A stretch of 64,000 nt of DNA from Pocillopora verrucosa (lineage: Eukaryota > Cnidaria > Anthozoa > Scleractinia > Pocilloporidae), in NCBI RefSeq assembly GCF_036669915.1, contig NC_089317.1, positions 496,001 to 560,000 on the forward strand, read 5' to 3'. The position numbers were made by a program, and so were the translations under genes. This document shows positions 1-27,019 of this stretch, piece after piece; within the stretch, counting starts at the first letter, position 1, and every line of letters begins with the position of its first letter. The notes beneath the pieces were generated by a model. That model was not told the DNA's origin. It saw only the letters and a list, made by a program, of their open reading frames with translations, and searched no databases.

Positions 1-3000
1 GAAGAGATAAAGATGAAAGGCAAGGATGGAAACATAATCCCTCGAAAGAAGATCGAGCTCAAATCAGGGGATCGTGGTGACCCTAGTAAAGTGGAGGCGA
101 TCGTGGAGACTGGTTTAAATATCGAGTTCTTGAAGTGTGGTGTAACCATCATTGACTCCCCTGGAAGAAATGAAAATAAAGCGCTGGACAACTTGGTAAA
201 AAAGCAGCTGGAAAATCCCCTGGCGTTTGTTATTTACGTGGTGGATGGACATGATCTCTTTACTGAGCAGGTAAGGTTTTTGTTGTTAACACGATCGATT
301 CCTCGATTGGTTACAATTAGTATTTCCGGGTTGCATTAAGATCGAAACTATATCAAGTGCCATGTTCTGTGAGTCACTTGGACTGTGTCCTTTAAATATT
401 GAGTCATGAATCAGTAATTCGATTAGAGTAGTTTGTAAACACGAAGCTGATTAAAACAAAAGTTTGCTCTTTTCGAAATTAAACAGTCGTGGTTTAAATT
501 TACACGAAAATGCCGTGAAACGACAAGAACGTATACACCACAACATCAACATAGCTTTTACTCTGGTTCGCTTGCTGTTGCATTTATTACGAAATAAATT
601 CGGCATTCGGATTTGGCAACCCACGGCAATCACTGTCGACCGCACCCGCGAACGACAGTGATTGCCGTGGGTTGCCAAATCCAATTGCTGCAATCTGATT
701 GGCTACGCTATTCGCCTTATATAATGAGTAAAGAGAGTGCCTTACTAGTAATATTGTGGGATTGTAAACAAGGTAAAATAACGATTTGAGCTTGTTTTGT
801 TATAAAGTTTTGAATAATTAGCAAATTTATAATAAAACGGCTAGATTATTCGCCCTCTATTTCTGTGCGTGAAAAAGATCTAATAGTTGATAGTGATTTT
901 TCTTTACACAGTCTTATATATCGTCAATTAATACCAATTGTTATTTGTTTACTTGCCAGGATAGAGAGATCCTGAATGATATGACATCCACAGAGACCGA
1001 TTCATCGATTTTTTTCGTTGTTAGCAAAGTGGAACCAGAAGATCGTACCGAATCATCAGATGAGGACGATGAATCAAGCCGTCATGCAGCATCAGTGAAG
1101 GCGCGGGAAAAGCGAGAGTGGGAAAGAAAAGTACATGAAGATAAGAAGACACGGGTGTACCGGCGGCTTGTCACATACGGCCATTTTTCTTCTGAAGAGC
1201 CCATGAATCAAAACGAGAAATTCCATGGGTTGTCAGCTTGGCGCATTCATAAGTACCGCGCTGTGAAGAAGAAAAATCCCGAAGCTTCTTTCGAGGAGTT
1301 TACGGATTACACGGAAGCCTTTGAAAGATTTCAAAACAGCTTGAAAAAGTTCGCTGAAGAATCTCTTCGTGCAAGGGTCGAGTGTGTGTGCAAAACCCTC
1401 GTGCGTGTTCTATCCAGATGCCTGGATTTCTTCATTCAGAAAGCCAATGTTTTGAAAAGGGGAAAGAAGCAAATATTGAAGACGTTGGAAACACTTTTGC
1501 ACGAGGAACAGCAAGTTCACGAGAACATAATCCGCGATCTGCAGGACGAAAAGCGGGCCATGTATATACAAGAACTGCTCAGTGATGCCATAAATGGAGC
1601 TAAAGATGACATCCTAAAAGAGGCAGGAGATTTTGAATACGTTTTTAGCGCATTATCCATTCCGTCAAATGGCCATGTAAAAGAGAAAGCAGCTGTGACT
1701 TGCTGTCAGGACCAGATTAAGCGGATGGTGGTCAACAAACTCCAGGGAGAGATCAAGCAAACGTTAACAATGATTTTCCGCTCCAGAGATCTGTTCCTTG
1801 TTCACCTCAAAGACGACGTAGAGCAAATTCAAAGAGAAATTACCAGAGATAATGAAATTCCATCGGCAGCAATCGCTCTTGGCAAAAGCCTTCTTTCTTC
1901 TTACGAAGCTCAAATCACGCTTTCACAAGGCGACAGAGCTTTGTTCAGTTTCATAAAGAAATCAATCGGGTGGATTTACAAGGCGATTTGTAATCCGATC
2001 GACACACTTGTCAAGACCATCAGTGGAGAGGTTCCTGTTGGCTCGAAGAAATGGAAGACAAATGTTGCTTCAGATGTCCTCGCGAAAGTAGATCCATCTG
2101 ACATGGCTCAGAGAATCACCACCAGCTTGAAACAGCACTTTTGTGAATGCCATAAAGAGTTCACCGGTGAAATAGAAAAAGTCCAAGGACTGTTCGATCG
2201 CGGACAGACCATCAAGGATATGAAAAGAGAAACTGTTCTTGGCTTTGCTCCCAGTCTTGCATTTCTTGAGATGCTGGCGTACGGTGTCACGGACAGGTTC
2301 AAGTTTGGATTTCCAGCTAAAGGAGAGCGCATTGGGACTGGGGCACAGGGCGAGGTCTTCGCCTGTGACAACATTAAAACTCCAGAAGGAAGGCCCTGTG
2401 TTGTTAAGGTGGTAAGTGTCGCTTCAGAGGAGGTGCTCAAGGACTTGACCCTGGAACTTCATAATACCAGGTAATGTGCAATATCAAGATGGTAAAGTAA
2501 CGTAACGTTTTGAAATAGGTGCGAAACAACGCGCGGTCTCATTGGTCGATGGGTTCGTTTGGAGTTATCGATACAGATTCGCCCGTATTTTGAGAAATCA
2601 TTTCTGAAGGGCAAATGGGATTCCTTTTTTCCATGTTCACAGGGGTTTATCTGAACACTCGGAGGATTAAGGAAATTCTTGAAAGCTATTCAAGCCCTCG
2701 TCTTTTCTTATTCCAACAATTTACTGAAATGAACTTCTTGGTTTAAGAGCTCTCCACCATCCGAACATTCTACCAGTTATGTGCACCGTAGTGGAGTCCA
2801 ACCCAACTCGTGGCCTTTCTGTGCAACTTGTCTCGGAGCGAATGAGATGCGATCTTCATGATGGCTTAGCGGGTATACCCTCCCTGAGAAAGAGGCTTGA
2901 GATAGCTCTTGGCGTTGCCAAAGCCTTGCAGTATCTTCACGGAGAGGAGCTGATCCATCGCGATGTTAAAATGCAAAACGTCTTGGTGAGTACCGTCAGA

Positions 3001-3612
3001 CTGCCTGTTAGCCTTGATTGTAAAATAAATGGGGCTGTGGTGGGTGTTTACTATGTAAGGCTTTGCTTATGAAGAGTTCCATAAGAGGAGCCGATTATTG
3101 AACCAAAAGGGGACTTAGAAATAATAGTATTCTGAATTTATACAGCATATAAGTGGTACAATACATTTTTGGACCAGCAAATTCGATTTTCTCCTTTTCT
3201 CTCCTTTCAGTTGGACGAGAAAAACAACGCCAAGTTAACAGATCTGGGTCTCTGTAAACCCGAGGGTCTCATCAATAACTCGTTGGTTGGTACTCCTCTC
3301 AATATGGCGCCCGAAATGATGAAACAACAGTACGACAAATCCATTGATGTGTATGCGTTCGGTATGTTGCTCTGGCGAGTGTGCGAAGGTAAGGGCAACC
3401 TACCAAAGAATATACACCGCCACTTTAACCCTCTGGTTATGCTCGTGATGAATGCATATGACAACAAGACGCCAGAGAGATTGGACGTGTTTCCAGAACA
3501 ATGCTGGCAACTCATGGAAAGGTGCTGGAATCAGGATCCCGAAGCAAGGCCATCATTCGACATCGTGGTTGGGGACTTGGAAGCGTTCCTAGCGGAGATG
3601 CGGGATCAGTAG
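1..3612 (+). CDS. GTPase-kinase fusion, DSTYK family, array copy A (5' partial)
   Basis: Exons: 1-270 (continues upstream of the window), 960-2470, 2748-2985, 3211-3612; all introns GT/AG. The visible protein starts at the residue equivalent to 160 of copy B, so the P-loop lies outside the window, but the G3 motif DSPG is present. Exon 2 begins DREILNDM, carries FFVVSK (likely G4 region) and an acidic stretch, then a long charged helical region, and ends with the kinase N-lobe: glycine loop GTGAQGEVF and VVK lysine. Exon 3 supplies HRDVKMQN. Exon 4 supplies DLG (DFG position), APE and YDKSIDVYAFG, ending at a TAG. The C-lobe phrases LGLCKPEG, SLVGTP, MAPE and DVYAFG agree with DSTYK, a dual-specificity kinase. 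No frameshift is seen, so this copy looks functional. The family call is strong for the kinase; its cellular role here is unknown. Confidence 0.85.
611..680. repeat. Perfect hairpin in intron 1 of copy A
   Basis: Bases 611-638 are the exact reverse complement of 653-680: 28-bp arms and a 14-base loop. The arms contain ggcaacccacggcaatcac. Equivalent sites exist in copies B-D but with mismatches or a shortened loop. It may be a fold-back transposon remnant or a source of hairpin RNA. Confidence 0.9.
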
Positions 3613-4173
3613 TAGCCGTATGGGGCATAATTGATTCTGCGTCTATTAAAAAAAAACTTAATTCATCTTTTTTATTTGTACAAGAAACGAGACTAAGCAC
3701 TGATAACGCGATCCGTGCCTCGGTAACAGAAAAGAAACCACTCTCTGGTGCTGATTCTGCTGTTGTTAAAGCTTAAAAAGTCATAAATAAATTGGCATTA
3801 GAAGCAGGTTTTCCTTGTAACCCCACAGTAGAAAGTGAGGAATGAGCAACGCTAATTCGACGGGCGCACTTGCATAACATTGTGCCTTGGGTAAGAGCGC
3901 CTATTCAAGGTATACGGTATATCCAGCACACATTTTTTTGAGGTTCCACTTCTGTTTTGTCTATGAATTAACTCCCATTGTCCTTTCAAAGGCGGTTTGT
4001 TGTTCCAGTTGAAAAGTCGGGAGTATAGTATAGTATACAGCTTCCCTAAAGCCTACCAGGGGTAGTAGATCCAAAAGAGTTTTTCCACTAACATAGCCAA
4101 GCGTGCGGTGGTGGGGAAGGGAAGTTTGAGTTGGTTTGTTGAAGTATTCATTCAATTTTAAGTTAGCGAGCAC

Positions 4174-4386
4174 TTAACTCTTTAACTCTCGTGATTGATA
4201 AAGAGAGAACTTCTCCTTAAAATATCAGTACATTATCAAGAAGAAAAGTGATGAGAATAAAGCAGAATATAACTTGGTGGACTTTACACTGATCCAATAC
4301 TAAATTCTCTTAAGTAATACCAAAAGATTCTATGGCAGACAGTGAGAAGAAATACTAATCAGATCTTGGGAGTGAAAAGGTTTAAT
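4174..4386. repeat. Type-A short inverted-repeat element (MITE-like)
   Basis: About 210 bp, beginning ttaactctttaactctcgtg and ending gatcttgggagtgaaaagg. The ends are inverted relatives of each other, and the interior has the shared words tctccttA..atcagtaca and ccaatactaaattctc. No coding capacity. Relatives occur at 12285, 30829, 34038, 47841 and 55153. Confidence 0.7.
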
Positions 4387-5240
4387 AGTCGTGATACCAG
4401 AGCTTCACACAATGAAAAGCTCAAAGAATTTGATTTATTAGATTTGAATGGCAAGTTCCTGAGACAGAATACTTAGGGAGTGCATCCTTTTGCAAATTAT
4501 AATAGGTACACTTTTTAAACCAACTACATTCATCAACCACGCTAGATCATTTGCTAGTTTATTCAAAACAATAATTACGATGGCATATTTTGTCAACTTG
4601 TAACCTGATGAGAGGGTGGCCTTTAAATTTCAATCATCATCATCATCAGAACACTTCATAACATTTCAGAGGCTACCAGTTGATTTCATAAACTTGCTTG
4701 TCTACAGCAAGGCCTCAATGAAAACATTAAAAAAAAAAGAAATTAGGTGATGTGGTTGAGAAACAAAGAACAGATTTCTATCACAAACTACAAAGTGGTA
4801 ACAGCATTTAACTTTGCATTACATGCCCATGGTAAGTACTAAAACATGTTACAACCTAAAACCACTTAAAAACCACCTACAATCACCCACAACTTAAAGA
4901 ACTTTACAAAATGAACTATTAAGTTACAAAAAATAATGAAGTAAAATAACAAACTTGTAGTCAATCTATCCAGAACTGTTTGCAAGGCAATCTCGTATAA
5001 TTACGAGGCGCGTAATTATTCCTAAGGCTAATCACACATGAACCAGCAGTTCATGGCTAGGTAATTCAGAGAGGTCCAAGTCTTCTCATTGCTATTGTTC
5101 CAAGCTCATGAAATTACTTCGGCCACCAAAATTGTTCTTTTCTTTTTTTCACACAAGCATCAATGCCGACCATGAACATTTGTACTTGTGCTCAACTTTA
5201 CACAGTGGAACTGATTTGAACTCAGGAGTGATATTTGATA

Positions 5241-5397
5241 GTGTATTCTGATCGTCCAACTAAGGGTAGTCCTGAAAAAGAAAGGACTGTGTCAATAATA
5301 ATAAGTCTTTTTAGTGATGACTTCTCTCAAGGATGACGAAAATTCATTACTACTGACAACAGTCCTTCTCAGGGCTTCTCTGGACGATCGGAAGACA
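5241..5397. repeat. Inverted pair of Penelope-like tail sequences
   Basis: gatcgtccaactaagggtag...agtcctgaaa at 5249-5280 is an inverted relative of acagtccttctcagggcttc...ggacgatc at 5360-5390. The same motif, with direct similarity, forms the 3' tail of the GIY-YIG fragment at 34755-34810. Repeated at 13866-14025 and 28946-29100. Confidence 0.6.
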
Positions 5398-6877
5398 TGA
5401 TCATATCAATTCAGAATATGCGAATTGATGGGCTGTATAGTTTGGATGTGGGGGGGAGGAGGGTTGGGTTAGGTGTGGGTTGGAGGATGGAGATGTAAGA
5501 ACCGACTTAAGGCAATTAAAATCCTTTCCCAAAATTAAACCATATCCAAAATATGATAGTAATCAGTTTGATAATAATTATTATTTCATATCTTCTGTAT
5601 TTTCTGTTTTGTTCTGTTTGATTTTTTGTTACTATTCCAAAGAATATAATGCCTTAACTGTGGGAACGATTTTCGTAATGGAAACATAACTTCTAATAAT
5701 ACATAAACGAAATAAAGAGAGGCTGGTGACTTTTGGTTTTCGTCTGCATGATCAGTGACAGTTTAGAGTAAGTACCGAAGGTAGGTAAGGTTCTCTTACT
5801 AAAATGTCGGTTGTACTCTTAGCTCAATCTTAATGAAGTTTGGCTTCGTTTAACTCCCCTACAAAGCTTAAGTATTACTTAGTTTAGGCTCTCATTCCGC
5901 AACCAGTTGTAAATATATTTCCTCTTGCATGTTAATAGAGTGGCCAGACTGCAGACTTTCGTAATTCTGAAAACATGAACCACTTCAAATCAACATTTCC
6001 AATTTTCTCACCCTCACGGGAAGCCATTTCTTCACAGTGACGATCAGGCTGGATCTCATTCAGTATAAAGGTTTGCAAAGGGACTTGATACTGTACAGAC
6101 GAGCACGACAAACCACGCTTATTTCTAGAATTCACTTTGATTCCTGGTTCATTCAGATTCTCGCAAAAACTAGACAATAATAACATGTCTCGTGACATCC
6201 AGACATGCAAGGGAAGATTGGAGTGGACTCGGAATTTTCTGGTACGGATTTCTTTTTTCATTGACCTTCCCCTTCATTATAAATTTTTCTTTGTACACAA
6301 CTTTGCTATCATCAGCAACTTGTCTTTTTGTTTTTGTCTTTGCACTTTCTTTTTGTTTTTGTTTGTTTTTGTTTTTTTTTCCTGTTTTTCTTTTATATCA
6401 ATTTTACCAGTCAGAGCAGGGGATTCACTAGCAGAATTGAACTCAATTTTCATCTAATTCAACCAATACTGTCGGCCCTCGCAGCCGCCCAAGACGAGAT
6501 GAAAAGAGCAAGAACTTTCAAGCTAACTGTAACTGTAATAGATCGTTGACGGGAAATACTGGATAGCCAAGAACTTCCCAGATTATTTTTGATAGGTCTG
6601 TCATTTTCGTTTTGAATCGCTTGCGCTGTTGTCAACCTGGGGACCTTTTGTAAGATCCAACGAGTAACGTTCGAACTTAATAAGGAAATCTTCTAATGGA
6701 AAATTGAGAGTTTTTAAATCGTGTCATAACATTAGTTATAACATGATGTAACAATGAGGATTGGTATAGCAAGACAATGCGGACGGTGTGCTCCAGTCTT
6801 CTATCATACACGAGTCCGTACCAGATTTTTAAAATTTCATATAAGGTGATCGATCGATCTCGTCGAGTCGTCGAGCC

Positions 6878-9800
6878 ATGGCGCTTCAAGACGTGTTCGA
6901 GGATTTCAAGAAAAGCAAGGCTGTGCTGAAAAAAGTTCACCATGACACAGTAGAATACTTCGGTGAAATCGTTCGAAAGCTTTCCGATAAAGGCACTGCA
7001 GATATTGCAGAAGAACTTCGCTACAAAGCCTTAGCCGTGCAAGCTTCTCCAAACGAAGTTCAAGTAATGGTTCAAACAGCGGCAATGGCGGATGTTCATC
7101 TGGAGTTCGATAACGCCCTTGCTGAACTGCTTTACACAGCTAAGGAGAAGAAGAAAGTTACCGATTTGTTTGATCAGGAGCCGGCACTCATTTTTGTCGG
7201 GCAAACCAACTGCGGAAAAAGCTCCATAATCAACGAGCTCCTAGGTTGTAAAGCGCTTCCTACATCAGATCAACCGAGCACCGCGAGAATTGTTCGCGTT
7301 TGCCACGCCGAGGAGCCTTATTGTCGCCTGGTTGACATAGATGGTAAAACCTTAGAAGAGATAAAGATGAAAGGCAAGAATGGAAACATAATCCCTCGAA
7401 AGAAGATCGAGCTCAAATCAGAGGATCGTGGTGACCCTAGTAAAGTGGAGGCGATCGTGGAGACCGGTTTAAATATCGAGTTCTTGAAGTGTGGTGTAAC
7501 CATCATTGACTCCCCTGGAAGAAATGAAAATAAAGCGCTGGACAACTTGGTAAGAAAGCAGCTGGAAAATCCCCAGGCGTTTGTTATTTACGTGGTAGAT
7601 GGACATGATCTCTTTACTGAGCAGGTAAGGTTTTTGTTGTTAACACGATCGATTCCTCGATTGGTTACAATTAGTATTTCCGGGTTGTATTAAGATCAAA
7701 ACTATACCAAGTGCCATGTTCTGTGAGTCACTTGGACTGTGTCCTTTAAATATTGAGTCATGAATCAGTAATTGGATTAGAGTAGTTTGTAAATACGAAG
7801 CTTATCAAGGCAAAAGTTTGCTCTTTTCGAAATTAAACAGTCGTGGTTTAAATTTACACGAAAACGCCGTGCAACGACAAGAACGTATACACCACAACAT
7901 CAGCATAGCTTTTACTCTGGTTTGCTTGCTGTTGCATATTTTACGAAATAAATTCGGCATTCGGAATTGGCAACCCAAGGCAATCACTGTCACTGCGTGA
8001 TTGCTGTGGGTTGCTAAATCCAATTGCTGCAATCTGATTGGCTACGCTATTCGCCTTATATAATGAGTAAAGAGAGTGCCTTACTAGTAATATTGTGGGA
8101 TTGTAAACAAGGTAAATTAACTATTTGAGCTTGTTTTGTTATAAAGTTTTGAATAATTAGCAGATTTGTAATAAAACGATTAGATTATTCGCCCTCTATT
8201 TCTAAGCGTGAAAAAGATCTAATAGTTGATGGTGATTTTTCTCTACACAGTCTTATCATCAATTAATACCAATTGTTATTTGTCTCCTTGCCAGGATAGA
8301 GAGGTCCTCAATGAAATGACATCCACAGGGACCGATTCAACGATTTTTTTCGTTGTTAGCAAACTGGAACCAGAAGATCGTACCGAATCATCAGATGAGG
8401 ACGATGAATCAAGCCGTCATGCAGCATCAGTGAAGACGCGGAAAACTGAGCGAGAGCAGGAAAGAGAATTACAGGAAAGAAAGAAGACACGGGTGTACGA
8501 GCGGCTTGTCAAAAACGGCCATTTTTCTTCTCAACTACCCATGAATCAAAACGAGCAATTCCATGGGTTGTCAGCTTGGCGCATTAAGAAGTACCACGCT
8601 ATGAAGAAGAAAAATCCCAAAGCTTCTTTCGAGGAGTTTACGGATTACACGGAAGCCTTTGAAAGATTTCAAAACAGCTTGAAAAAGTTCGCTGAAGAAT
8701 CTCTTCGTGCAAGGGTCGAGTGTGTGTGCAAAACCCTCGTGCGTGTTCTATCCAGATGCCTGGATTTCTTCATTCAGAAAGCCAACGTTTTGAAAAGGGG
8801 AAAGAAGCAAATATTGAAGACGTTGGAAAGACTTTTGCACGAGGAACAGCAAGTTCACGAGAACATAATCCGCGATCTGCAGGACGAAAAGCGGGCCATA
8901 TATATACAAGAACTGCTCAGTGATGCCATAATTGGAGCTAGAGATGACATCCTAAAAGAGGCAGGAGATTTTGAATACGCTTTGACCGAATTTTCCATTC
9001 CGTCAAGTGGCCATGTAAAAGAGAAAGCAGCTGTGACTTGCTGTCAGGACCAGATTGAGCGGATGGTGGTCAACAAACTCCAGGGAGAGATCAATCAAAC
9101 GTTAACAATGATTTTCCGCTCCAGAGATCTGTTCCTTGTTCACCTCAAAGACGACGTAGAGCAAATTCAAAGAGAAATTACCAGAGATAATGAAATTCCA
9201 TCGGCAGCAATCGCTCTTGGCAAAAGCCTTCTTTCTTCTTACGAAGCTCAAATCACGTTTTCACAACACGACGGAACTTTTTCCCATTTCATAAAGAAAT
9301 CAATCGGGTGGTTTTACAAGGCGATTTGTAATCCGATCGGCACACTTACCAAGGCCATCAGTGGAGAGGTTCCTGTTGGCTCGAAGAAATGGAAGACAAA
9401 TGTTGCTTCAGATGTCCTCGCGAAAGTAGATCCATCTGACATGGCTCAGACAATCACCACCAGCTTGAAACAGCACTTTTGTGAATGCCATAAAGAGTTC
9501 ACCGGTGAAATAGAAAAAGTCCAAGGACTGTTCGATCGCGGACAGACCATCAAGGATATGCAGAGGGAAACTGTTCTTGGCTTTGCTCCCAGTCTTGCAC
9601 TTCTTGAGATGCTGGCATATGGTGTCATGGACAGGTTCAAGTTTGGTTTTCCAGCTAAAGGAGAGCGCATTGGGACCGGTGCACAGGGCGAGGTCTTCGC
9701 CTGTGATAACATTAAAACTCCAGAAGGAAGGCCCTGTGTTGTTAAGGTGGTAAGTGTCGCTTCAGAGGAGGTGCTCAAGGACTTGACCCTGGAACTTCAT

Positions 9801-10885
9801 AATACCAGGTAATGTGCAAGATCAAGATGGTAATTAGTTATCGATACAGATTCGCCCGTATTTTGAGAAATCATTTCTGAAGGGCAAATGGGATTCCTTT
9901 TTTCCATGTTGACAGGGGTTTATCTGAACACTCGGATGATTAAGGAAATTCTTGAAAGCTATTCAAGCCCTCGTCTTTTCTTATTCCAACAATTTACTAA
10001 AATGAACTTCTTGGTTTAAGAGCTCTCCACCATCCGAACATTCTACCAGTTATGTGCACCGTAGTGGAGTCCAACCCAACTCGTGGCCTTTCTGTGCAAC
10101 TTGTCTCGGAGCGAATGAGATGCGATCTTCATGATGGCTTAGCGGGTATACCCTCCCTGAGAAAGAGGCTTGAGATAGCTCTTGGCGTTGCCAAAGCCTT
10201 GCAGTATCTTCACGGAGAGGAGCTGATCCATCGCGATGTTAAAATGCAAAACGTCTTGGTGAGTACCGTCAGACTGCCTGTTAGCCTTGATTGTAAAATA
10301 AATGGAGCTGTGGTGGGTGTTTACTATGTAAGGCTTTGCTTATGAAGAGTTCCATAAGAGGAGCCGATTATTGAACCAAAAGGGGACTTAGAAATAATAG
10401 TATTCTGAATTTATACAGCATATAAGTGGTACAATACATTTTTGGACCAGCAAATTCGATTTTCTCCTTTTCTCTCCTTTCAGTTGGACGAGAAAAACAA
10501 CGCCAAGTTAACAGATCTGGGTCTCTGTAAACCCGAGGGTCTCATCAATAACTCGTTGGTTGGTACTCCTCTCAATATGGCGCCCGAAATGATGAAACAA
10601 CAGTACGACAAATCCATTGATGTGTACGCGTTCGGTATGTTGCTCTGGCGAGTGTGCGAAGGCCAGGGCAACCTACCAAAGAATATACACCGCCACTTTA
10701 ACCCTCTGGTTATGCTCGTGATGAATGCATGTGACAACAAGACACCAGAGAGATTGGACGTGTTTCCAGAACAATGCTGGCAACTCATGGAAAGGTGCTG
10801 GAATCAGGATCCCGAAGCAAGGCCATCATTCGACATCGTGGTTGGGGACTTGGAAGCGTTCCTAGCGGAGATGCAGGATCAGTAG
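6878..10885 (+). CDS. GTPase-kinase fusion, DSTYK family, array copy B (complete)
   Basis: Exons 6878-7624, 8295-9808, 10021-10258 and 10484-10885 give 966 residues. The start ATG sits in a strong context (gagccATGG), the same in copies C and D. Exon 1 is a dynamin-like GTPase domain: P-loop GQTNCGKS at about 108-115, a PST-type switch near 132-134, DSPG at 211-214. Exon 2 begins with FFVVSK in the G4 position and an acidic SSDEDDESS segment, then a long, probably coiled-coil region. The kinase has glycine loop GTGAQGEV at about 709, Lys about 733, HRD at 824-826, DLG at 844-846 and APE at 866-868, so all catalytic residues are present. Length is close to vertebrate DSTYK (about 930). The GTPase motifs are seen directly; coupling of GTPase and kinase activity is inference. 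Intron 2 is about 70 bp shorter than in A, C and D. Confidence 0.87.
7963..8018. repeat. Decayed intron hairpin, copy B
   Basis: This is the same site as the copy A hairpin, but the inner arms and loop are largely deleted and the outer arms carry mismatches (cccaagg against ctgtggg). Confidence 0.75.
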
Positions 10886-11242
10886 TAGCCGTATGGGGCA
10901 TAATTGATTCTGCATCTATTAAAAAAAAACTTAATTCATCTTTTTTATTTGTACAAGAAACGAGACTAAGCACTGATAACGCGATCCGTGCCTCTGTATA
11001 AACGAAAGCAACTCTACCTTCCGCTCAGCTGACGCTGAGCCATATTGTACCGAAAAAACGGGAATCCCCCCCCCACCCCTCACCCCTGGCATACTTAGAA
11101 AACATATGCAACGTCACCAATATGCGCACTACGGATAAGGAACTTAGTTGCGCAATTGCCTTTGATTACACGACTTCTCCAGTAATGTTGTGCTAATCTT
11201 GTGACTAAATTTTGTATTGTTAGCCCTTAGTAAAGAGTTTGT

Positions 11243-11389
11243 AATAAATTACTTGTGTAGTGTATTGCGTTACCTAAGCGTTACTATAGTCACGCTATAT
11301 CCTGTAAGACACGATCGGTACATGATTGTAAAAGTACATTCCTATGTAAAAGTAGTATTACTGATTCCTAGTATTGTATTGTGAATAAA
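11243..11389 (+). promoter_or_regulatory. Candidate poly(A) signals for copy B
   Basis: AATAAA occurs at 11243-11248 and at 11384-11389, about 360 and 500 bp after the stop codon. The same words follow copies C and D. Copy A lacks this block, so its transcript must end elsewhere. Confidence 0.45.
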
Positions 11390-14856: not shown

Positions 14857-15039
14857 GTTTTTATTGAAGTTGGACAAGACTTTATGAGAATTTATGAAAA
14901 AGTCATTAGTAATATTTTAAAAAATTATTTTTAAGTTACTTCAACCAAAATACTGTTTCAGTTAATTTATGCATTGTTAACACACAATGACTGAGGACAT
15001 TAGTGATATACTAGTTTGATGTTCAAGCTGTAGTGATCT

Positions 15040-15600
15040 GTTCCATTGTTTGTTACGTTAGTGTCTCGCGCAGAGTTTTTCCTGTGTTCTGTTTGATTGT
15101 TTGTTACGCTAGTGTGCCACGCACTGTTTTCTCTGTGTTCTGTTTGACTGTTTGTTACGTTAGTGTCTCGCGCAGAGTTTTTCCTGTGCTCTGTTGGATT
15201 GTTTGTTACGTTTGTGTCTCGCACACTGTTTTCTCTGGGTTGTGTTGGCTTGTTTGTTAGGCTGGAGTCTCGTGCATTGTTTTCTCTGTTCTGCTTGACT
15301 GTTTCTCATGTTAGTGTATCGAGCACTGTTTTCTTTGAGTTCTGTTAGATTGTTTGGTACTTTGGTGCCTCGCTCATCGTTTTCTCTGTACTATGTTTGT
15401 TGTTTGCGTCGTTAATTCCTCGCGCACTGTTTTCTTTGAGTTCTGTTTAATCGTTTGTTACGTTAGTGCCTCGCGCACAGTTTTTTCCTGTATTCTGTTG
15501 ACTGTTTATTACGTTGGTGTCTCGCGCATTGACTTTTCTGTGTTCTGTTTGACTGTTTGCTACGTTGGTGCCTCGCACACTATTTTCTTTGTGTTCTGTT
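15040..15600. repeat. 51-bp minisatellite, about 11 units
   Basis: Diverged units of about 51 bp share gtttgttacgttagtgtctc, then gcgca..gttttct and ctgtgttctgtttga. It lies between the downstream block of one unit and the upstream block of the next. Copies B and D keep only the final unit fragment upstream (5606-5640 and 21650-21690). Open frames across it (VCYVSVSR-type) are repeat artefacts. Confidence 0.85.
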
Positions 15601-16847
15601 TGATTTTTTGTTACTATTCCACAGAATATAATGCCTTAACTGTGGGAACGATTTTCGTAATGGAAACATAACTTCTAATAATACATAAACGAAATAAAGA
15701 GAGGCTGGTGACTTTTGGTTTTCGTCTGCATGATCAGTGACAGTTTAGAGTAAGTACCGAAGGTAGGTAAGGTTCTCTTACTAAAATGTCGGTTGTACTC
15801 TTAGCTCAATCTTAATGAAATTTGGCTTCGTTTGACTCCCCTACAAAGCTTAAGTATTACTTAGTTTAGGCTCTCATTCCGCAACCAGTTGCAAATATAT
15901 TTCCTTTTGCATGTTAATAGAGTGGCCAGACTGCAGACTTTCGTAATTCTGAAAACATGAACCACTTCAAATCAACATTTCCAATTTTCTCACCCTCACG
16001 GGAAGCCATTTCTTCACAGTGACGGTAAGGCTGGATCTCATTCAGTATAAAGGTTTGCAAAGGGACTTGATACTGTACAGACGAGCACGACAAACCAGGC
16101 TTATTTCTAGAATTCACTTTGATTCCTGATTTATTCAGATTCTCTAAAAAACTAGACAATAATAATAACATGTCTCGTGACATCCAGACATGCAAGAGAA
16201 GATTGGAGTGGACTCGGAATTTTCTGGTACGGATTTCTTTTTTCATTGACCTTCCCCTTCATTATAAATTTTTCTTTGTACACAACTTTGCTATCATCAG
16301 CAACTTGTCTTTTTGTTTTTGTCTTTGCTCTTTCTTTTTGTTTTTGTTTTTTTTTTCCTGTTTTTCTTTTATATCAATTTTACCAGTCAGAGCAGGGGAT
16401 TCACTAGCATAATTGAACTCAATTTTCATCTAATTCAACCAATACTGTCGGCCCTCGCCCAAGACGAGATGAAAAGAGCAAGAACTTTCAAGCTAACTGT
16501 AACTGTAATGGATCGTTGACGGGAAATACAGGATAGCCAAGAACTTCCCAGATTATTTTTGATAGGTCTGTCATTTTCGTTTTGAATCGCTTGCGCTGTT
16601 GTCAACCTGGGGACCTTTAGTAAGATCCAACGAGTAACGTTCAAACTTAATAAGGAAATCTTCTGATGGAAAATTGAGAGTTTTTAAATCATGTCATAAC
16701 AATTGTTATAACATGATGTAACAATGAGGATTGGTATAGCAAGACACTGCGGACGGTGTGCTCCAGTCTTCTATCATACACGAGTCCGTACCAGATTTTT
16801 AAAATTTCATATAAGGTGATCGATCGATCTCGTCGAGTCGTCGAGCC

Positions 16848-19800
16848 ATGGCGCTTCAAGACGTGTTCGAGGATTTCAAGAAAAGCAAGGCTGTGCTGAA
16901 AAAAGTTCACCATGACACAGTAGAATACTTCGGTGAAATCGTTCGAAAGCTTTCCGATAAAGGTACTGCAGATATTTCAGAAGAACTTCGCTACAAAGCC
17001 TCAGCCGTGCAAGCTTCTCCAGACGAAGTTCGAGTAATGGTTCAAACAGCGGCAATGGCGGATGTTCATCTGGAGTTCGATAACGCCCTTGCTGAGCTGC
17101 TTTACACAGCTAAGGAGAAGAAGAAAGTTACCGATTTGTTTGATCAGGAGCCGGCACTCATTTTTGTCGGGCAAACCAACTGCGGAAAAAGCTCCATAAT
17201 CAACGAGCTCCTAGGTTGTAAAGCGCTTCCCACATCAGATCGACCGAGCACCGCGAGAATTGTTCGCGTTTGCCACGCCGAGGAGCCCTATTGTCGCCTG
17301 GTTGACATAGATGGTAAAACCTTAGAAGAGATAAAGATGAAAGGCAAGGATGGAAACATAATCCCTCGAAAGAAGATCGAGCTCAAATCAGAGGATCGTG
17401 GTGACCCTAGTAAAGTGGGGGCGATCGTGGAGACCGGTTTAAATATCGAGTTCTTGAAGTGTGGTGTAACCATCATTGACTCCCCTGGAAGAAATGAAAC
17501 TAAAGCGCTGGACAACTTGGTAAAAAAGCAGCTGGAAAATCTCCAGGCGTTTGTTATTTACGTGGTGGATGGACATCATCTCTTTACTGAGCAGGTAAGG
17601 TTTTTGTTGTTAACACGATCGATTCCTCGATTGGTTACAATTAGTATTTCCGGGTTGTATTAAGATCGAAACTATACCAAGTGCCATGTTCTGTGAGTCA
17701 CTTGGACTGTGTCCTTTAAATATTGAGTCATGAATCAGTAATTCGATTAGAGTAGTTTGTAAATACGAAGCTTATCAAGGCAAAGTTTGCTCTTTTCGAA
17801 ATTAAACAGTCGTGGTTTAAATTTACACGAAAACGCCGTGCAACGACAAGAACGTATACACCACAACATCAGCATAGCTTTTACTCTGGTTTGCTTGCTG
17901 TTGCATTTATTACGAAATAAATTCGGCATTCGGAATTGGCAACCCAAGGCAATCACTGTCGTCCGCAGGTGCGGTCGACAGTGATTGCCGTGGGTTGCTA
18001 AATCCAATTGCTGCAATCTAATTGGCTACGCTATTCGCCTTATATAATGAGTAAAGAGAGTGCCTTACTAGTAATATTGTGGGATTGTAAACAAGGTAAA
18101 ATAACTATTTGAGCTTGTTTTGTTATAAAGTTTTGAATAATTAGCAAATTTATAATAAAACGATTAGATTATTCGCCCTCTATTTCTGTGCGTGAAAAAG
18201 ATCTAATAGTTGATGGTGATTTTTCTCTACACAGTCTTATCATCAATTAATACCAATTGTTATTTGTCTCCTTGCCAGGATAGAGAGGTCCTGAATGAAA
18301 TGACATCCACAGGGACCGATTCAACGTTTTTTTTCGTTGTTAGCAAAGTGGAACCAGAAGATCGTACCGAATCATCAGATGAGGACGGTGAATCAAGCCG
18401 TCATGCAGCATCAGTGAAGACGCGGAAAACTGAGCGAGAGCAGGAAAGAGAATTACAGGAAAGAAAGAAGACACGGGTGTACGAGCGGCTTGTCAAAAAC
18501 GGCCATTTTTCTTCTCAACAGCCCATGAATCAAAACGAGCAATTCCATGGGTTGTCAGCTTGGCGCATTAAGAAGTACCACGCTATGAAGAAGAAAAATC
18601 CCAAAGCTTCTTTCGAGGAGTTTACGGATTACACGGAAGCCTTTGAGAGATTTCAAAATAGCTTGAAAAAGTTCGCTGAAGAATCTCTTCGTGCAAGTGT
18701 CGAGTGTGCGTGCAAAACCCTCGTGCGTGTTCTATCCAGATGCCTGGATTTCTTCATTCAGAAAGCCAACCTCTTGAAAAGTGGAAAGAAGCAAATATTG
18801 AAGACGTTGGAAAGACTTTTGCGCGAGGAACAGCAAGTTCACGAGAACGTAATTCGCGATCTGCAGGACGAAAAGCGGGCGATATCTATACAAGAACTGC
18901 TCAGTGATGCCATAATTGGAGCTAGAGATGACATCCTAAAAGAGGCAGGAGATTTTGAATACGTTTTGACCGAATTTTCCATTCCGTCAAGTGGCCATGT
19001 AAAAGAGAAAGCAGCTGTGACTTGCTGTCAGGACCAGATTGAGCGGATGGTGGTCAACAAACTCCAGGGAGAGATCAATCAAACGTTAATAATGATTTTC
19101 CGCTCCAGAGATCTGTCCCTTGTTCACCTCAAAGACGACGTAGAGAAAATTCAAAGAGAAATTACCAGAGATAATGAACTTCCATCGGCAGCAATCGCTC
19201 TTGGCAAAAGCCTTGTTTCTTCTTACGAAGCTCAAATCACGTTTTCACAACGCCAAAGAGCTTTTTTTTGGAATCCGATCGACACACTTCCCAAGGCCAT
19301 CAGGGGAGAGATTCCTGTTGGCTCGAAGAAATGGAAGACAAATGTTGCTTCAGATGTCCTCGCGAAAGTAGATCCATCTGACATGGCTAAGACAATCACC
19401 ACCAGCTTGAAACAGCACTTTTGTAAATGCCATAAAGAGTTCACCGGTGAAATAGAAAAAGTCCAAGGACTGTTCGATCGCGGACAGACCATCAAGGATA
19501 TGCAGAGGGAAACTGTTCTTGGCTTTGCTCCCAGTCTTGCACTTCTTGAGATGCTGGCATATGGTGTCATGGACAGGTTCAAGTTTGGTTTTCCAGCTAA
19601 AGGAGAACGCATTGGGACCGGTGCACAGGGCGAGGTCTTCGCCTGTGACAACATTAAAACTCCAGAAGGAAGGCCCTGTGTTGTTAAGGTGGTAAGTGTC
19701 GCTTCAGAGGAGGTGCTCAAGGACTTGACCCTGGAACTTCATAATACCAGGTAATGTGCAATATCAAGATGGTAAGGTAACGTAACGTTTTGAAATAGGT

Positions 19801-20886
19801 GCGAAACAACGCGCGGTCTCATTGGTCGATGGGTTCGTTTGGAGTTATCGATACAGATTCGCCCGTATTTTGAGAAATCATTTCTTAAGGGCAAATGGGA
19901 TTCCTTTTTTCCATGTTGACAGGGGTTTATCTGAACACTCGGAGGATTAAGGAAATTCTTGAAAGCTATTCAAGCCCTCGTCTTTTCTTATTCCAACAAT
20001 TTACTGAAATGAACTTCTTGGTTTAAGAGCTCTCCACCATCCGAACATTCTACCAGTTATGTGCACCGTAGTGGAGTCCAACCCAACTCGTGGCCTTTCT
20101 GTGCAACTTGTCTCGGAGCGAATGAGATGCGATCTTCATGATGGCTTAGCGGGTATACCCTCCCTGAGAAAGAGGCTTGAGATAGCTCTTGGCGTTGCCA
20201 AAGCCTTACAGTATCTTCACGGAGAGGAGCTGATCCATCGTGATGTTAAAATGCAAAACGTCTTGGTGAGTACCGTCAGACTGCCTGTTAGCCTTGATTG
20301 TAAAATAAATGGGGCTGTGGTGGGTGTTTACTATGTAAGGCTTTGCTTATGAAGAGTTCCATAAGAGGAGCCGATTATTGAACCAAAAGGGGACTTAGAA
20401 ATAATAGTATTCTGAATTTATACAGCATATAAGTGGTACAATACATTTTTGGACCAGGAAATTCGATTATCTCCTTTTCTCTCCTTTCAGTTGGACGAGA
20501 AAAACAACGCCAAGTTAACAGGTATGGGTCTCTGTAAACCCGAGGGTCTCATCAATAACTCGTTGGTTGGTACTCCTCTCAATATGGCGCCCGAAATGAT
20601 GAAACAACAGTACGACAAATCCATTGATGTGTACGCGTTCGGTATGTTGCTCTGGCGAGTGTGCGAAGGCCAGGGCAACCTACCAAAGAATATACACCTT
20701 AACCCTCTGATCATGCTCGTGATGAATGCATGTGACAACAAGACACCAGAGAGATTGGACGTGTTTCCAGAACAATGCTGGCAACTCATGGAAAGGTGCT
20801 GGAATCAGGATCCCGAAGCAAGGCCATCATTCGACATCGTGGTTAGGGACCTGGAAGCGTTCCTAGCGAAGATGCGGGATCAGTAG
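16848..20886 (+). CDS. GTPase-kinase fusion, DSTYK family, array copy C (predicted pseudokinase)
   Basis: Exons 16848-17594, 18279-19750, 20028-20265 and 20491-20886 give 950 residues with an open frame throughout. The GTPase motifs match copy B (GQTNCGKS, DSPG), with changes such as ENKA to ETKA and GHDLF to GHHLF. The kinase keeps GTGAQGEVF, the VVK lysine and HRDVKMQN, but the DFG-equivalent DLG of the other copies reads GMG (about residue 830; bases 20521-20529). The lost Asp is the Mg-binding residue of protein kinases, so catalysis is predicted to be lost. It also lacks 14 residues of the variable segment in exon 2 (around 19260) and two residues at the IHRHFNP site. With the rest intact, this looks like a kept pseudokinase allele or member rather than a decayed pseudogene; expression is unknown. 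Confidence 0.85.
17935..18002. repeat. Intron hairpin, copy C
   Basis: Arms around tcactgtcg and cgacagtga are retained with a new short loop (tccgcaggtgcggt, itself partly self-complementary). A few mismatches lie in the outer arms. Confidence 0.8.
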
Positions 20887-22922
20887 TAGCCATATGGGGC
20901 ATAATTGATTCTGCATCTATTAAAAAAAAAAACTTAATTCATCTTTTTTATTTGTACAAGAAACGAGACTAAGCACTGATAACGCGATCCGTGCCTCGGT
21001 ATAAACGAAAGCAACTCTACCTTCCGCTCAGCTGACGCTGAGCCATATTGTACCGAAAAAACGGGAATGCCCCCCCCCACCCCTCACCCCTGGCATACTT
21101 AGAAAACATGCATACGTCACCAATATGCGCACTACGAATAAGGAACTTAGTTGCGCAATTGCCTTTGATTACACGACTTCTCCAGTAATGTTGTGCTAAT
21201 CTTGTGACTAAATTTTGTATTGTTAGCCCTTAGTAAAGAGTTTGTAATAAATTACTTGTGTAGTGTATTGCGTTACCTAAGCGTTACTATAGTCACGCTA
21301 TATCCTGAAAGACACGATCGGTACATGATTGTAAAAGTACATTCCTATGTAAAAGTAGTATTACTGATTCCTAGTATTGTATTGTGAATAAAGCTTGTTG
21401 ATTCTTTAATAAAATTCAGTTGAGCAATAGCAATGAAAGGAGTAACTTGACTGAGTCTAGACGACACAACAACTTGTAAAGTTGGAACCTTCGATGTGGG
21501 GGGGAGGAGGGTTGGGTTAGGTGTGGGTTGGAGGATGGAGATGTAAGAACCGACTTAAGGCAATTAAAATCCTTTCCCAAAATTAAACCATATCCAAAAT
21601 ATGATAGTAATCAGTTTGATAATAATTATTATTTCATATCTTCTGTATTTTCTGTTTTGTTCTGTTTGATTTTTTGTTACTATTCCAAAGAATATAATGC
21701 CTTAACTGTGGGAACGATTTTCGTAATGGAAACATAACTTCTAATAATACATAAACGAAATAAAGAGAGGCTGGTGACTTTTGGTTTTCGTCTGCATGAT
21801 CAGTGACAGTTTAGAGTAAGTACCGAAGGTAGGTAAGGTTCTCTTACTAAAATGTCGGTTGTACTCTTAGCTCAATCTTAATGAAGTTTGGCTTCGTTTA
21901 ACTCCCCTACAAAGCTTAAGTATTACTTAGTTTAGGCTCTCATTCCGCAACCAGTTGCAAATATATTTCCTCTTGCATGTTAATAGAGTGGCCAGACTGC
22001 AGACTTTCGTAATTCTGAAAACATGAACCACTTCAAATCAACATTTCCAATTTTCTCACCCTCACGGGAAGCCATTTCTTCACAGTGACGATCAGGCTGG
22101 ATCTCATTCAGTATAAAGGTTTGCAAAGGGACTTGATACTGTACAGACGAGCACGACAAACCACGCTTATTTCTAGAATTCACTATGATTCCTGGTTCAT
22201 TCAGATTCTCGCAAAAACTAGACAATAATAACATGTCTCGTGACATCCAGACATGCAAGGGAAGATTGGAGTGGACTCGGAATTTCCTGGTACGGATTTC
22301 GTTTTTCATTGAGCTTCCCCTTCATTATAAATGTTTCTTTGTACACAACTTTGCTATCATCAGCAACTTGTCTTTTTGTTTTTGTCTTTGCTCTTTCTTT
22401 TTGTTTTTGTTTGTTTTTGTTTGTTTTTCCTGTTTTTCTTTTATATCAATTTTACCAGTCAGAGCAGGGGATTCACTAGCAGAATTGAACTCAATTTTCA
22501 TCTAATTCAACCAATACTGTCGGCCCTCGCAGCCGCCCAAGACGAGATGAAAAGAGCAAGAACTTTCAAGCTAACTGTAACTGTAATAGATCGTTGACGG
22601 GAAATACTGGATAGCCAACTTCCCAGATTATTTTTGATAGGTCTGTCATTTTCGTTTTGAATCGCTTGCGCTGTTGTCAACCTGGGGACCTTTAGTAAGA
22701 TCCAACGAGTAACGTTCGAACTTAATAAGGAAATCTTCTGATGGAAAATTGAGAGTTTTTAAATCATGTCATAACATTAGTTATAACATGATGTAACAAT
22801 GAGGATTGGTATAGCAAGACACTGCGGACGGTGTGCTCCAGTCTTCTATCATACACGAGTCCGTACCAGATTTTTAATATTTCATCTAAAGTGATCGATC
22901 AATCTCGTCGAGTCGTCGAGCC
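20887..22922. other. Spacer between copies C and D (collapsed form)
   Basis: No gene recognised. The first 600 bp match the flank after copy B up to about 21493 (word aaccttcga). The sequence then jumps to the tgtgggggggagg block that lies near 5449 and 14071 in the other spacers. About 2.6 kb of spacer and the minisatellite are therefore missing. Confidence 0.82.
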
Positions 22923-25900
22923 ATGGCGCTTCAAGACGTGTTCGAGGATTTCAAGAAAAGCAAGGCTGTGCTGAAAAAAGTTCACGATGACACAGTAGAA
23001 TACTTCGGTGAAATCGTTCGAAAGCTTTCCGATAAAGGTGCTGCAGATATTGCAGAAGAACTTCGCTACAAAGCCTCAGCCGTGCAAGCTTCTCCAGACG
23101 AAGTTCGAGTAATGGTTCAAACAGCGGCAATGGCGGATGTTCATCTGGAGTTCGATAACGCCCTTGCTGAGCTGCTTTACACAGCCAAGGAGAAGAAGAA
23201 AGTTACCGATTTGTTTGATCAGGAGCCGGCACTCATTTTTGTCGGGCAAACCAACTGCGGAAAAAGCTCCATAATCAACGAGCTCCTAGGTTGTAAAGCG
23301 CTTCCTACATCAGATCAACCGAGCACCGCGAGAATTGTTCGCGTTTGCCACGCCGAGGAGCCTTATTGTCGCCTGGTTGACATAGACGGTAAAACCTTGG
23401 AAGAGATAAAGATGAAAGGCAAGGATGGAAACATAATCCCTCGAAAGAAGATCGAGCTCAAATCAGAGGATCGTGGTGACCCTAGTAAGGTGGGGGCGAT
23501 CGTGGAGACCGGTTTAAATATCGAGTTCTTGAAGTGTGGTGTAACCATCATTGACTCCCCTGGAAGAAATGAAAATAAAGCGCTGGACAACTTGGTAAGA
23601 AAGCAGCTGGAAAATCCCCAGGCGTTTGTTATTTACGTGGTGGATGGACATGATCTCTTTACTGAGCAGGTAAGGTTTTTGTTGTTAACACGATCGATTC
23701 CTCGATTGGTATTTCCGGGTTGTATTAAGATCGAAACTATACCAAGTGCCATGTTCTGTGAGTCACTTGGACTGTGTCCTTTAAATATTGAGTCATGAAT
23801 CAGTAATTGGATTAGAGTAGTTTGTAAATACGAAGCTTATCAAGGCAAAAGTTTGCTCTTTTCGAAATTAAACAGTCGTGGTTTAAATTTACACGAAAAC
23901 GCCGTGCAACGACAAGAACGTATACACCACAACATCAGCATAGCTTTTACTCTGGTTTGCTTGCTGTTGCATTTATTACGAAATAAATTCGGCATTCGGA
24001 ATTGGCAACCCAAGGCAATCACTGTCGTCCGCAGGTGCGGTCGACAGTGATTGCCGTGGGTTGCTAAATCCAATTGCTGCAATCTGATTGGCTACGCTAT
24101 TCGCCTGATATAATGAGTAAAGTGAGTGGCTTACTAGTAACATTGTGGGATTGTAAACAAGGTAAATTAACTATTTGAGCTTGTTTTGTTATAAAGTTTT
24201 GAATAATTAGCAGATTTATAATAAAACGATTAGATTATTCGCTCTCTATTTCTATGCGTGAAAAAGATCTAATAGTTGATAGTGATTTTTCTTTACACAG
24301 TCTTATATATCGTCAATTAATACCAATTGTTATTTGTCTCCTTGCCAGGATAGAGAGGTCCTGAATGAAATGACACCCGCAGGGACCGATTCATCGATTT
24401 TTTTCGTTGTTAGCAAACTGGAACCAGAAGATCGTACCGAATCGTCAGATGAGGACGACGAATCAGACGAGGACGATGAATCAAGCCGTCATGCAGCATC
24501 AGCGAAGGCACGGAAAATGCGAGAGAAGGAAAGAGAAGTACAGGAAAGAAAGAAGACAAGGGTGTACGAGCGGCTTGTCAAAAACGGCCATTTTTCTTCT
24601 CAACAGCCCATGAATCAAAACGAGCAATTCCATGGGTTGTCAGCTTGGCGCATTAAGAAGTACCACGCTATGAAGAAGAAAAATCCCAAAGCTTCTTTAG
24701 AGGAGTTTACGGATTACACGGAAGCCTTTGAGAGATTTCAAATTAGCTTGAAAAAGTTCGCTGAAGAATCTCTTCGTGCAAGGATCGAGTGTGGGTGCAA
24801 AACCCTCGTGCGTGTTCTATCCAGATGCCTGGATTTCTTCATTCAGAAAGCCAACGTCTTGAAAAGTGGAAAGAAGCAAATATTGAAGACGTTGGAAACA
24901 CTTTTGCGCCAGGAACAGCAAGTTCACGAGAACGTAATCCGCGATCTGCAGGACGAAAAGCTGGCGATATCTATACAAGAACTGCTCAGTGATGCCATAA
25001 TTGGAGCTAGAGATGACATCCTAAAAGAGGCAGGAGATTTTGAATACGTTTTGACCGAATTTTCCATTCCGTCAAGTGGCCATGTAAAAGAGAAAGCAGC
25101 TGTGACTTGCTGTCGGGACCAGATTGCGCGGATGGTGGTCAACAAACTCCAGGGAGAGATCAATCAAACGTTAACAATGATTTTCCGCTCCAGAGATCTG
25201 TTCCTTGTTCACCTCAAAGACGACGTAGAACAAATTCAAAGAGAAATTACCAGAGATAATGAAATTCCATCGGCAGCAATCGCTCTTGGCAAAAGCCTTG
25301 TTTCTTCTTATGAAGCTCAAATCACGTTTTCACAACGCCAAAGAGCTTTTTCCCGTTTCCTAAAGAAATCAATCGGGTGGTGTTTCAAGCTGATGAGGAA
25401 TCCGATCGACACATTTCCCGAGGCCATCAGGAGAAAGGTTCCTGTTGGTTCGAAGAAATGGAAGACAAATGTTGCTTCAGATGTCCTCGCGAAAGTAGAT
25501 CCATCTGACATGGCTCAGACAATCACCACCAGCTTGAAACAGCACTTTTGTAAATGTCATAAAGAGTTCACCGGTGAAATAGAAAAAGTCCAAGGACTGT
25601 TCGATCGCGGACAGACCATCAAGGATATGCAAAGGGAAATTGTTCTTGGCTCTGCTCCCAGTCTTGCATTTCTTGAGATGCTGGCATATGGTGTCATGGA
25701 CAGGTTCAAGTTTGGATTTCCAGCTAAAGGAGAGCGCATTGGGACTGGGGCACAGGGCGAGGTCTTCGCCTGTGACAACATTAAAACTCCAGAAGGAAGG
25801 CCCTGTGTTGTTAAGGTGGTAAGTGTCGCTTCAGAGGAGGTGCTCAAGGACTTGACCCTGGAACTTCATAATACCAGGTAATGTGCAATATCAAGATGGT

Positions 25901-27019
25901 AAAGTAACGTAACGTTTTGAAATAGGTGCGAAACAACGCGCGGTCTCATTGGTCGATGGGTTCGTTTGGAGTTATCGATACAGATTCGCCCGTATTTTGA
26001 GAAATCATTTCTGAAGGGCAAATGGGATTCCTTTTTTCCATGTTCACAGGGGTTTATCTGAACACTCGTAGGATTAAGGAAATTCTTGAAAGCTATTCAA
26101 GCCCTCGTCTTTTCTTATTCCAACAATTTACTAAAATGAACTTCTTGGTTTAAGAGCTCTCCACCATCCGAACATTCTACCAGTTATGTGCACCGTAGTG
26201 GAGTCCAACCCAACTCGTGGCCTTTCTGTGCAACTTGTCTCGGAGCGAATGAGATGCGATCTTCATGATGGCTTAGCGGGTATACCCTCCCTGAGAAAGA
26301 GGCTTGAGATAGCTCTTGGCGTTGCCAAAGCCTTGCAGTATCTTCACGGAGAGGAGCTGATCCATCGCGATGTTAAAATGCAAAACGTCTTGGTGAGTAC
26401 CGTCAGACTGCCTGTTAGCCTTGATTGTAAAATAAATGGGGCTGTGGTGGGTGTTTACTATGTAAGGCTTTCCTTATGAAGAGTTCCATAAGAGGAGCCG
26501 ATTATTGAACCAAAAGGGGACTTAGAAATAATAGTATTCTGAATTTATACAGCATATAAGTGGTACAATACATTTTTGGACCAGCAAATTCGATTTTATC
26601 CTTTTCTCTCCTTTCAGTTGGACGAGAAAAACAACGCCAAGTTAACAGATCTGGGTCTCTGTAAACCCGAGGGTCTCATCAATAACTCGTTGGTTGGTAC
26701 TCCTCTCAATATGGCGCCCGAAATGATGAAACAACAGTACGACAAATCCATTGATGTGTACGCGTTCGGCATGTTGCTCTGGCGAGTGTGCGAAGGCCAG
26801 GGCAACCTACCAAAGAATATACACCGCCACTTTAACCCTCTGGTTGTGCTCGTGATGAATGCATGTGACAACAAGACACCAGAGAGATTGGACGTGTTTC
26901 CAGAACAATGCTGGCAACTCATGGAAAGGTGCTGGAATCAGGATCCCGAAGCAAGGCCATCATTCGACATCGTGGTTAGGGACTTGGAAGCGTTCGTAGC
27001 GGAGATGCGGGATCAGTAG
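22923..27019 (+). CDS. GTPase-kinase fusion, DSTYK family, array copy D (complete)
   Basis: Exons 22923-23669, 24349-25877, 26155-26392 and 26618-27019 give 971 residues, the longest copy. The P-loop GQTNCGKS, DSPG, GTGAQGEVF, HRDVKMQN, DLG and MAPE are all intact. It carries a six-residue duplication in the acidic tract (DEDDESDEDDES) and its own version of the variable segment (RFLKKSIGWCFKLM). Exon 1 reads open past its donor to 23798 because intron 1 lacks 12 bp present in the other copies; I take the conserved GTAAGG donor at 23670 as real. The TATA-like catataag found about 40 bp upstream of the start in B and C is altered here (catctaaag). It is the last copy of the array. Confidence 0.87.
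24000..24069. repeat. Intron hairpin, copy D
   Basis: Nearly identical to the copy C hairpin, including the loop sequence, so C and D share a more recent common version of this intron than either does with A. Confidence 0.8.

Follow-up and report, generated by a model that had tools for sequence, protein, structure and literature searches.

What kind of protein results when a dynamin-like GTPase and a DSTYK-type kinase are encoded in one chain, and what does its existence say about DSTYK itself? The question is raised by a 64,000-nucleotide stretch of the genome of the coral Pocillopora verrucosa (assembly GCF_036669915.1, contig NC_089317.1, here C6, positions 496001-560000; 'the window' hereafter), in which a first-pass annotation had noticed a tandem family of such genes. 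DSTYK (dusty kinase, RIP5 or SgK496) is a human disease gene, linked to urinary tract malformations and to the spastic paraplegia SPG23 (PMC8490499, excerpt). The first ~650 residues carry no known function; in a figure legend of the same paper everything but the kinase is labelled as low complexity or as lacking a known function, in keeping with the annotation's remark that vertebrate DSTYK is usually described by its kinase alone. Our best reading of the sequences is that DSTYK belongs to an overlooked dynamin–kinase superfamily, in which it would have lost its GTPase, and that the genes in the window keep both enzymes, save for an altered G4 motif and, in copy C, a kinase that is probably dead.

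Exon-by-exon comparison resolves the array into four tandem genes of four exons each:

1..3612, plus strand: copy A; exons 1-270 (the end of exon 1), 960-2470, 2748-2985 and 3211-3612; exon 1 starts upstream of the window
6878..10885, plus strand: copy B; exons 6878-7624, 8295-9808, 10021-10258 and 10484-10885; 966 amino acids
16848..20886, plus strand: copy C; exons 16848-17594, 18279-19750, 20028-20265 and 20491-20886; 950 amino acids
22923..27019, plus strand: copy D; exons 22923-23669, 24349-25877, 26155-26392 and 26618-27019; 971 amino acids

Copy A gives a complete model of 965 amino acids once its upstream flank is added. All internal junctions of the spliced models are GT..AG, the frames are open, and each ends in a single terminal stop. 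Exon by exon, the copies are 94-100% identical to copy B. Searched with the middle exon of copy B, the assembly (353 Mb in 52 contigs; all genome-wide counts given here are lower bounds) yields two further copies, E and F, which are 81 and 83% identical and lie at C6:24.71 and 24.74 Mb; each gives a complete open model. Distant matches occur at C6:24.73 Mb and on a second contig, C14. The claim of at least four near-identical copies in a row thus holds, and the family extends beyond the row. Two tandem repeats also lie in the window, one of 51 bp (11.5 copies) at 15033-15614, between copies B and C, and one of 19 bp (21 copies) at 41567-41967.

Copies as alike as these could in principle be an assembly echo of one locus, or models misjoined from neighbouring exons. 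They are not one locus assembled repeatedly, because they are distinguished by substitutions and in-frame indels and the units of the array are unequal (about 7.3, 10.0 and 6.1 kb apart). The flanks are homologous and broken up by indels, a pattern that fits unequal crossing-over rather than an echo. Copies E and F, 24 Mb away, have diverged, and the family is multi-copy at two sites within this genome. As for misjoining, exon 1 is connected to the kinase exons by its reading frame, by intron positions and phases that match those of a gene on C14, identified below as DSTYK, and by full-length colinearity with that gene, which has the identical exon order and intron phases. We reject an artefact of either kind as very improbable.

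The fusion that had been proposed for copies B, C and D is evident in the single open model of copy B. Its residues 105-271 match the Pfam family Dynamin_N (E 2.1e-21), scoring 77 bits where the cut-off is 27 and covering positions 2-166 of the 168 in the profile; residues 705-950 match Pkinase (E 2e-38, 133 bits). The only other Pfam models above cut-off are one overlapping GTPase model and one overlapping kinase model. The G domain straddles the junction of exons 1 and 2, with G1 and G3 in exon 1 and the G4 position in exon 2. The motifs are as follows:

7199..7222, plus strand: G1 (P-loop) of copy B, GQTNCGKS, residues 108-115
7508..7519, plus strand: G3 of copy B, DSPG, residues 211-214
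8355..8369, plus strand: G4 position of copy B, VSKLE, residues 270-274, altered (NKVD or NKWD in families III and IV, described below)
10229..10237, plus strand: HRD in the kinase of copy B, residues 824-826
10514..10522, plus strand: DLG in the kinase of copy B (DFG position), residues 844-846
20521..20529, plus strand: in copy C, GMG where A, B and D have DLG; its kinase is probably dead

The P-loop and DSPG are present in B, C and D as annotated; in copy A, DSPG lies inside the window and the P-loop in the flank. Both motifs are intact in all six copies, the P-loop of copy F reading GETNCGKS. The usual G4 motif, (N/T)KxD, is not found in the window family, which has SKLE or SKVE instead; the nucleotide-binding site first described as intact is thus intact at G1 and G3, but not at G4.

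Among solved structures, the closest chain to exon 1 is a bacterial dynamin-like protein (PDB 2j68, E 4.3e-7); mitofusins match weakly (E 0.08 and above). These proteins share the dynamin-family G domain with the window proteins but are not known to have a C-terminal kinase. Neither the solved chains, at E values up to 10, nor Pfam give a match to the middle exon. Copy B also has a weak Roc match (E 0.12). The ROCO kinases LRRK1 and LRRK2 likewise carry a GTPase and a kinase in one chain, but use a ROC domain (PMC10492769) where the window proteins use Dynamin_N. The GBP, IRG, Dynamin_M and GED models are absent from the 14 Pfam families listed for copy B at E values up to 10, a range in which HMMER filters drop most weak matches, and so the resemblance to GBP, IRG and Mx proteins that the annotation suggested is not a close relationship. 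Those proteins are large GTPases that occur in expanded clusters, like the window genes, and Mx has a fast-evolving stalk loop; none of them is known to carry a kinase.

Profiles of the PADLOC collection also match copy B: LeoA the G domain (7e-10), and mad6 the kinase (175 bits, 5.6e-52), the latter above Pfam Pkinase. Membership of a defence system was considered and rejected, the matches being taken as general dynamin and kinase similarity; mad6 is a possible lead to bacterial kin of the DSTYK-type kinase. No relative emerged when viral contigs (three scans) and prokaryote genomes (one scan) were searched, and a phage collection returned one weak match to the G domain (29.6% identity over part of the domain).

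The kinase half is of DSTYK type. The kinase of copy B is 42% identical (213 bits) to that of human DSTYK, for which the sequence used, here and throughout, was not taken from a database record; the best solved kinase scores only 84 bits. Beyond the six copies, the best match in the genome to exon 4 is the DSTYK gene on C14 (48%). Copies A, B and D retain an intact glycine loop, lysine, HRD and DLG, so that the DSTYK hallmarks claimed for B, C and D are found in B and D but are incomplete in C. DSTYK itself has been placed outside RIPK1-5 (PMC9573974, excerpt; PMC10492769).

Are the window genes, then, this animal's DSTYK? The C14 gene argues otherwise. It is a single gene of five exons, with a 931-amino-acid model that is 51% identical to human DSTYK over 846 aligned positions (60, 73 and 76% in its third to fifth exons), and by these identities it is the DSTYK ortholog of this genome. 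Copy B reaches 28% over 897 positions. The window genes accordingly were rejected as one-to-one orthologs, and they form a group separate from DSTYK in trees of both domains. They do belong to the DSTYK family in a wide sense, which the closest kinase, a homologous N-terminal half and a common gene structure all indicate: copy B and the C14 gene are colinear over their full length (26% over 898 aligned positions, E 2e-86), and all three introns of the window genes lie at places homologous to C14 introns, in phases 0, 2 and 0 (the C14 model has a fourth). On these comparisons the window genes are expanded paralogs of DSTYK rather than DSTYK itself. The two differ in that DSTYK is a single gene, on another contig, that has lost G1 and G3, whereas the window family has six copies, keeps both motifs, and has a hypervariable segment, discussed below.

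The loss would explain how the relationship could be missed. In C14 DSTYK the P-loop reads GQTCFAKV and the G3 position CSPS, and the first two exons match no Pfam family at E 0.01; in the human DSTYK sequence used, the P-loop position reads GQDCNVKC, and this sequence has no Dynamin_N match at E values up to 10. The N-terminal halves of copy B and human DSTYK nevertheless align at 22% identity with 94 bits (E 4e-24), whereas the best of 200 shuffles scores 25.4 bits. Because the halves align while the human protein has no Dynamin_N match of its own, the dynamin relation of DSTYK becomes visible through genes like those in the window. The first-pass annotation had supposed that the ancestral or cnidarian protein was a two-enzyme machine. 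Since the motifs of the C14 ortholog are degenerate, the intact site is evidence on the common ancestor and the paralog branch only, and not on cnidarian DSTYK itself.

The window family and DSTYK are not alone. The last kinase exon of the window genes matches 40 places in the genome. Dynamin_N is found on the same strand within 12 kb upstream of 27 of these, and a kinase place lies downstream of 28 of the 65 Dynamin_N places, counts made without a shuffled control and including one G domain shared by two kinase places. The 13 kinase places that lack an upstream Dynamin_N include C14 DSTYK, whose G domain escapes Pfam. Short stretches were fetched for 18 of the 40 kinase places. There are at least two further fusion families, here III and IV. 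Family III is a cluster at C6:24.68-24.74 Mb (loci L019 and L022-L025) with intact G1, DSPG and NKVD; one minus-strand member has DAPG for DSPG, and its G1 exon was not found. Its kinases keep the catalytic Asp (HED, YED or HVD) but have NLA or NVS in place of DFG, and most members have an acidic, aspartate-rich linker. Family IV is a large cluster at C6:17.3-19.1 Mb (L035, L039, L040-L051, L056 and L057). The two members read at length have GETS(S/A)GKS and NKWD; one has HRD, the other HGD. The stalk has a hydrophobic, paddle-like stretch, and some of the kinases look intact. A cluster of Dynamin_N GTPases also occurs at C4:14.99-15.15 Mb (L026-L032); none of the 40 kinase-exon matches falls on that contig.

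A tree of the kinase C-lobe exon (L035 dropped) places three family III rows together with the window genes and DSTYK in one group (80/96), which does not include family IV. In a tree of G domains (seven C4 loci as the C4 cluster; L032, L037, L019 and the minus-strand G domain of L018 left out) the order of the families is the same, the C4 GTPases aside (83/74 inside 89/76). Because the two trees agree, and because the window genes and the C14 gene have introns in common, we favour one ancestral dynamin–kinase fusion over many. Three states of it would then coexist in one genome: a degenerate GTPase with an intact kinase (DSTYK), both largely intact (the window genes), and an intact GTPase with a DFG-altered kinase (family III).

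Both enzymes of the window family are under purifying selection. Ratios of nonsynonymous to synonymous change (dN/dS; gapped columns skipped) in the three within-site pairs, A-B, C-D and E-F, are 0.34 for the G domain and 0.24 for the kinase, compared with 0.63 for residues 1-100, 1.33 for the linker and 0.64 for each part of the stalk. Between the two genomic sites they are 0.28 and 0.32 for the two enzymes, 0.95 for residues 1-100, 0.65 for the linker, and 0.48 and 1.11 for the stalk parts. One stretch of the stalk behaves differently:

9234..9389, plus strand: hypervariable segment of copy B, residues 563-614 (by alignment 1896-2051 in A, 19218-19331 in C and 25303-25458 in D)

Among the six copies 32 of its 52 columns vary, against 11% of the kinase columns; its dN/dS is 1.60 within sites and 1.45 between them, and in copy C it has a 14-codon deletion. 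Relative to the kinase, the balance of nonsynonymous and synonymous change is shifted in the segment (Fisher p 0.0003) and in the linker (p 0.00008), and no different in the G domain (p 0.56); the bounds of the segment were drawn after its variability had been seen, so that these tests favour it. In a codon model of the segment (IQ-TREE likelihoods), a free omega gains 2.5 log-likelihood units over an omega of 1, the direction of omega not being read out. In the stalk alignment, the segment falls about where the two family IV members have a long hydrophobic stretch, which would correspond to the membrane paddle of dynamin-like proteins. Amphipathic-helix scoring does not prove membrane binding by the segment: its hydrophobic moments are moderate (0.23-0.50), and the strongest hydrophobic windows are at residues 390-415.

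The constraint on the G domain bears on whether it is a GTPase at all. Since its G4 reads SKLE or SKVE and not the NKVD or NKWD of families III and IV, the domain might serve as an inactive, nucleotide-binding scaffold, or have a different base specificity, and DSTYK demonstrates that a dead G domain is tolerated in this lineage. Purifying selection on the domain, and G1 and G3 kept in every copy, speak for activity, and we regard inactivity as possible but doubtful.

How might the two enzymes work together? With fair confidence, we propose that the window genes encode two-enzyme paralogs of DSTYK, descended from one ancestral fusion, in which GTP-driven assembly of the stalk on a membrane controls the kinase, and that DSTYK has lost the nucleotide-binding motifs. 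The middle region would form a long, presumably helical stalk. GTP-loaded G domains would pair, and the stalks would assemble on a membrane, which by analogy with DSTYK might be that of the late endosome or lysosome. Assembly would gather the C-terminal kinases, and so switch them on or off, or position them, on membrane-bound substrates. The hypervariable segment, at the place in the stalk where dynamins have the tip that binds membranes or targets, would determine the choice of membrane or target. All of these activities are inferences by analogy: that the window proteins bind and hydrolyse GTP, that they assemble, bind membranes and thereby control the kinase, and that the segment has this role.

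Published DSTYK biology fits a dynamin-derived body. DSTYK is located on late endosomes and lysosomes, and its overexpression produces large fused vesicles (PMC6981171); it also regulates membrane fusion with the vacuole (PMC7012607, excerpt). Kinase-dead DSTYK still co-localizes with LAMP1 (PMC11933320, excerpt), and its location is therefore independent of the kinase; at the LAMP1 site, active DSTYK phosphorylates STING Ser366 (same excerpt). A Hydra study lists a DSTYK homologue with day-night expression in common with Nematostella (PMC6407280, excerpt). The wider proposal is that the superfamily is ancient in animals and was overlooked because the G domain of DSTYK is too decayed for Pfam, that DSTYK owes its membrane-fusion and late-endosome roles to a dynamin-like body of its own and not to an effector, and that the expanded members are variable membrane sensors. 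We give it a little better than an even chance.

Several points weigh against these proposals. The altered G4 makes the GTP specificity of the window proteins uncertain, and the kinase of copy C, having lost DLG, is probably dead. The pairing of kinase and Dynamin_N places is uncontrolled, as noted. The forks of both trees are only moderately supported (80/96, 83/74 and 89/76), some branches are long, and a divergent row of family III is placed apart from its group; approximately unbiased (AU) tests (p values of 0.46 and 0.21) do not reject the groups tested, but do not establish them as clades either. By simple counts, amino-acid change in the segment is not significantly above neutrality (p 0.14). 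In zebrafish, vacuole fusion needs the kinase activity itself, and the authors favour a phosphorylated effector, none of which they could identify, or transcriptional control (PMC7012607, excerpt). For these reasons the zebrafish data do not require a membrane role for the front half of DSTYK.

What the expanded copies are for can be read in two ways. They may be intracellular sensors of pathogens or damage, kinase-bearing analogues of Mx, GBP and IRG, whose G domain and variable segment recognize a membrane that is damaged or encloses a pathogen and whose kinase signals. The clustered expansion on C6 and the fast-diverging segment next to conserved enzymes would suit this, as would the role of DSTYK in phosphorylating STING, together with the greater susceptibility of DSTYK-deficient mice to a DNA virus (PMC11933320, excerpt). 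Set against it, change in the segment is not clearly above neutral, a flexible loop under relaxed constraint would give a similar pattern, and gene families of all functions often contain tandem copies. The sensor reading is compatible with the mechanism proposed above and differs from it in purpose only; given the divergent segment, the clustering and the DSTYK-STING role, the immune role that was first suggested for the genes is plausible by analogy, but as a specific explanation we hold it only tentatively. Alternatively, the proteins may be housekeeping kinases of membrane traffic, acting in endosome or vacuole fusion, whose copies are kept for dosage or tissue-specific use. The published vacuole and lysosome roles of DSTYK (PMC7012607, excerpt; PMC6981171) and the near-identity of the kinases among the six copies agree with this. 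The rapid divergence of the segment, and the loss of kinase motifs in copy C and in family III, are ill suited to mere dosage, and we hold this explanation, too, only tentatively.

The remainder of the window contains other features:

35003-35404, minus strand: GIY-YIG endonuclease fragment (Pfam 5.7e-5, barely above cut-off), probably left by a mobile element
45132-45599 and 49523-49777, minus strand: exons of a putative UBXN7-type gene, for which a weak UIM match below cut-off (E 0.037) is the sole Pfam hint
51299-51535 and 53047-53367, plus strand: exons of a putative DZIP1-type zinc-finger gene

In the titles and abstract openings of the open literature searched (subscription papers, InterPro and UniProt lay outside the search), no dynamin-like domain is described for DSTYK. 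The Pfam architecture alone would be visible to any automatic annotation; what we regard as new is the link to DSTYK through common introns and agreeing trees. If DSTYK has a dynamin-derived body, then it may act as a pseudo-GTPase that itself tethers or shapes membranes, which would be a direct and testable answer to the missing effector of vacuole fusion. The window proteins would provide the version with intact G1 and G3 in which the GTPase and the kinase can be disabled separately.

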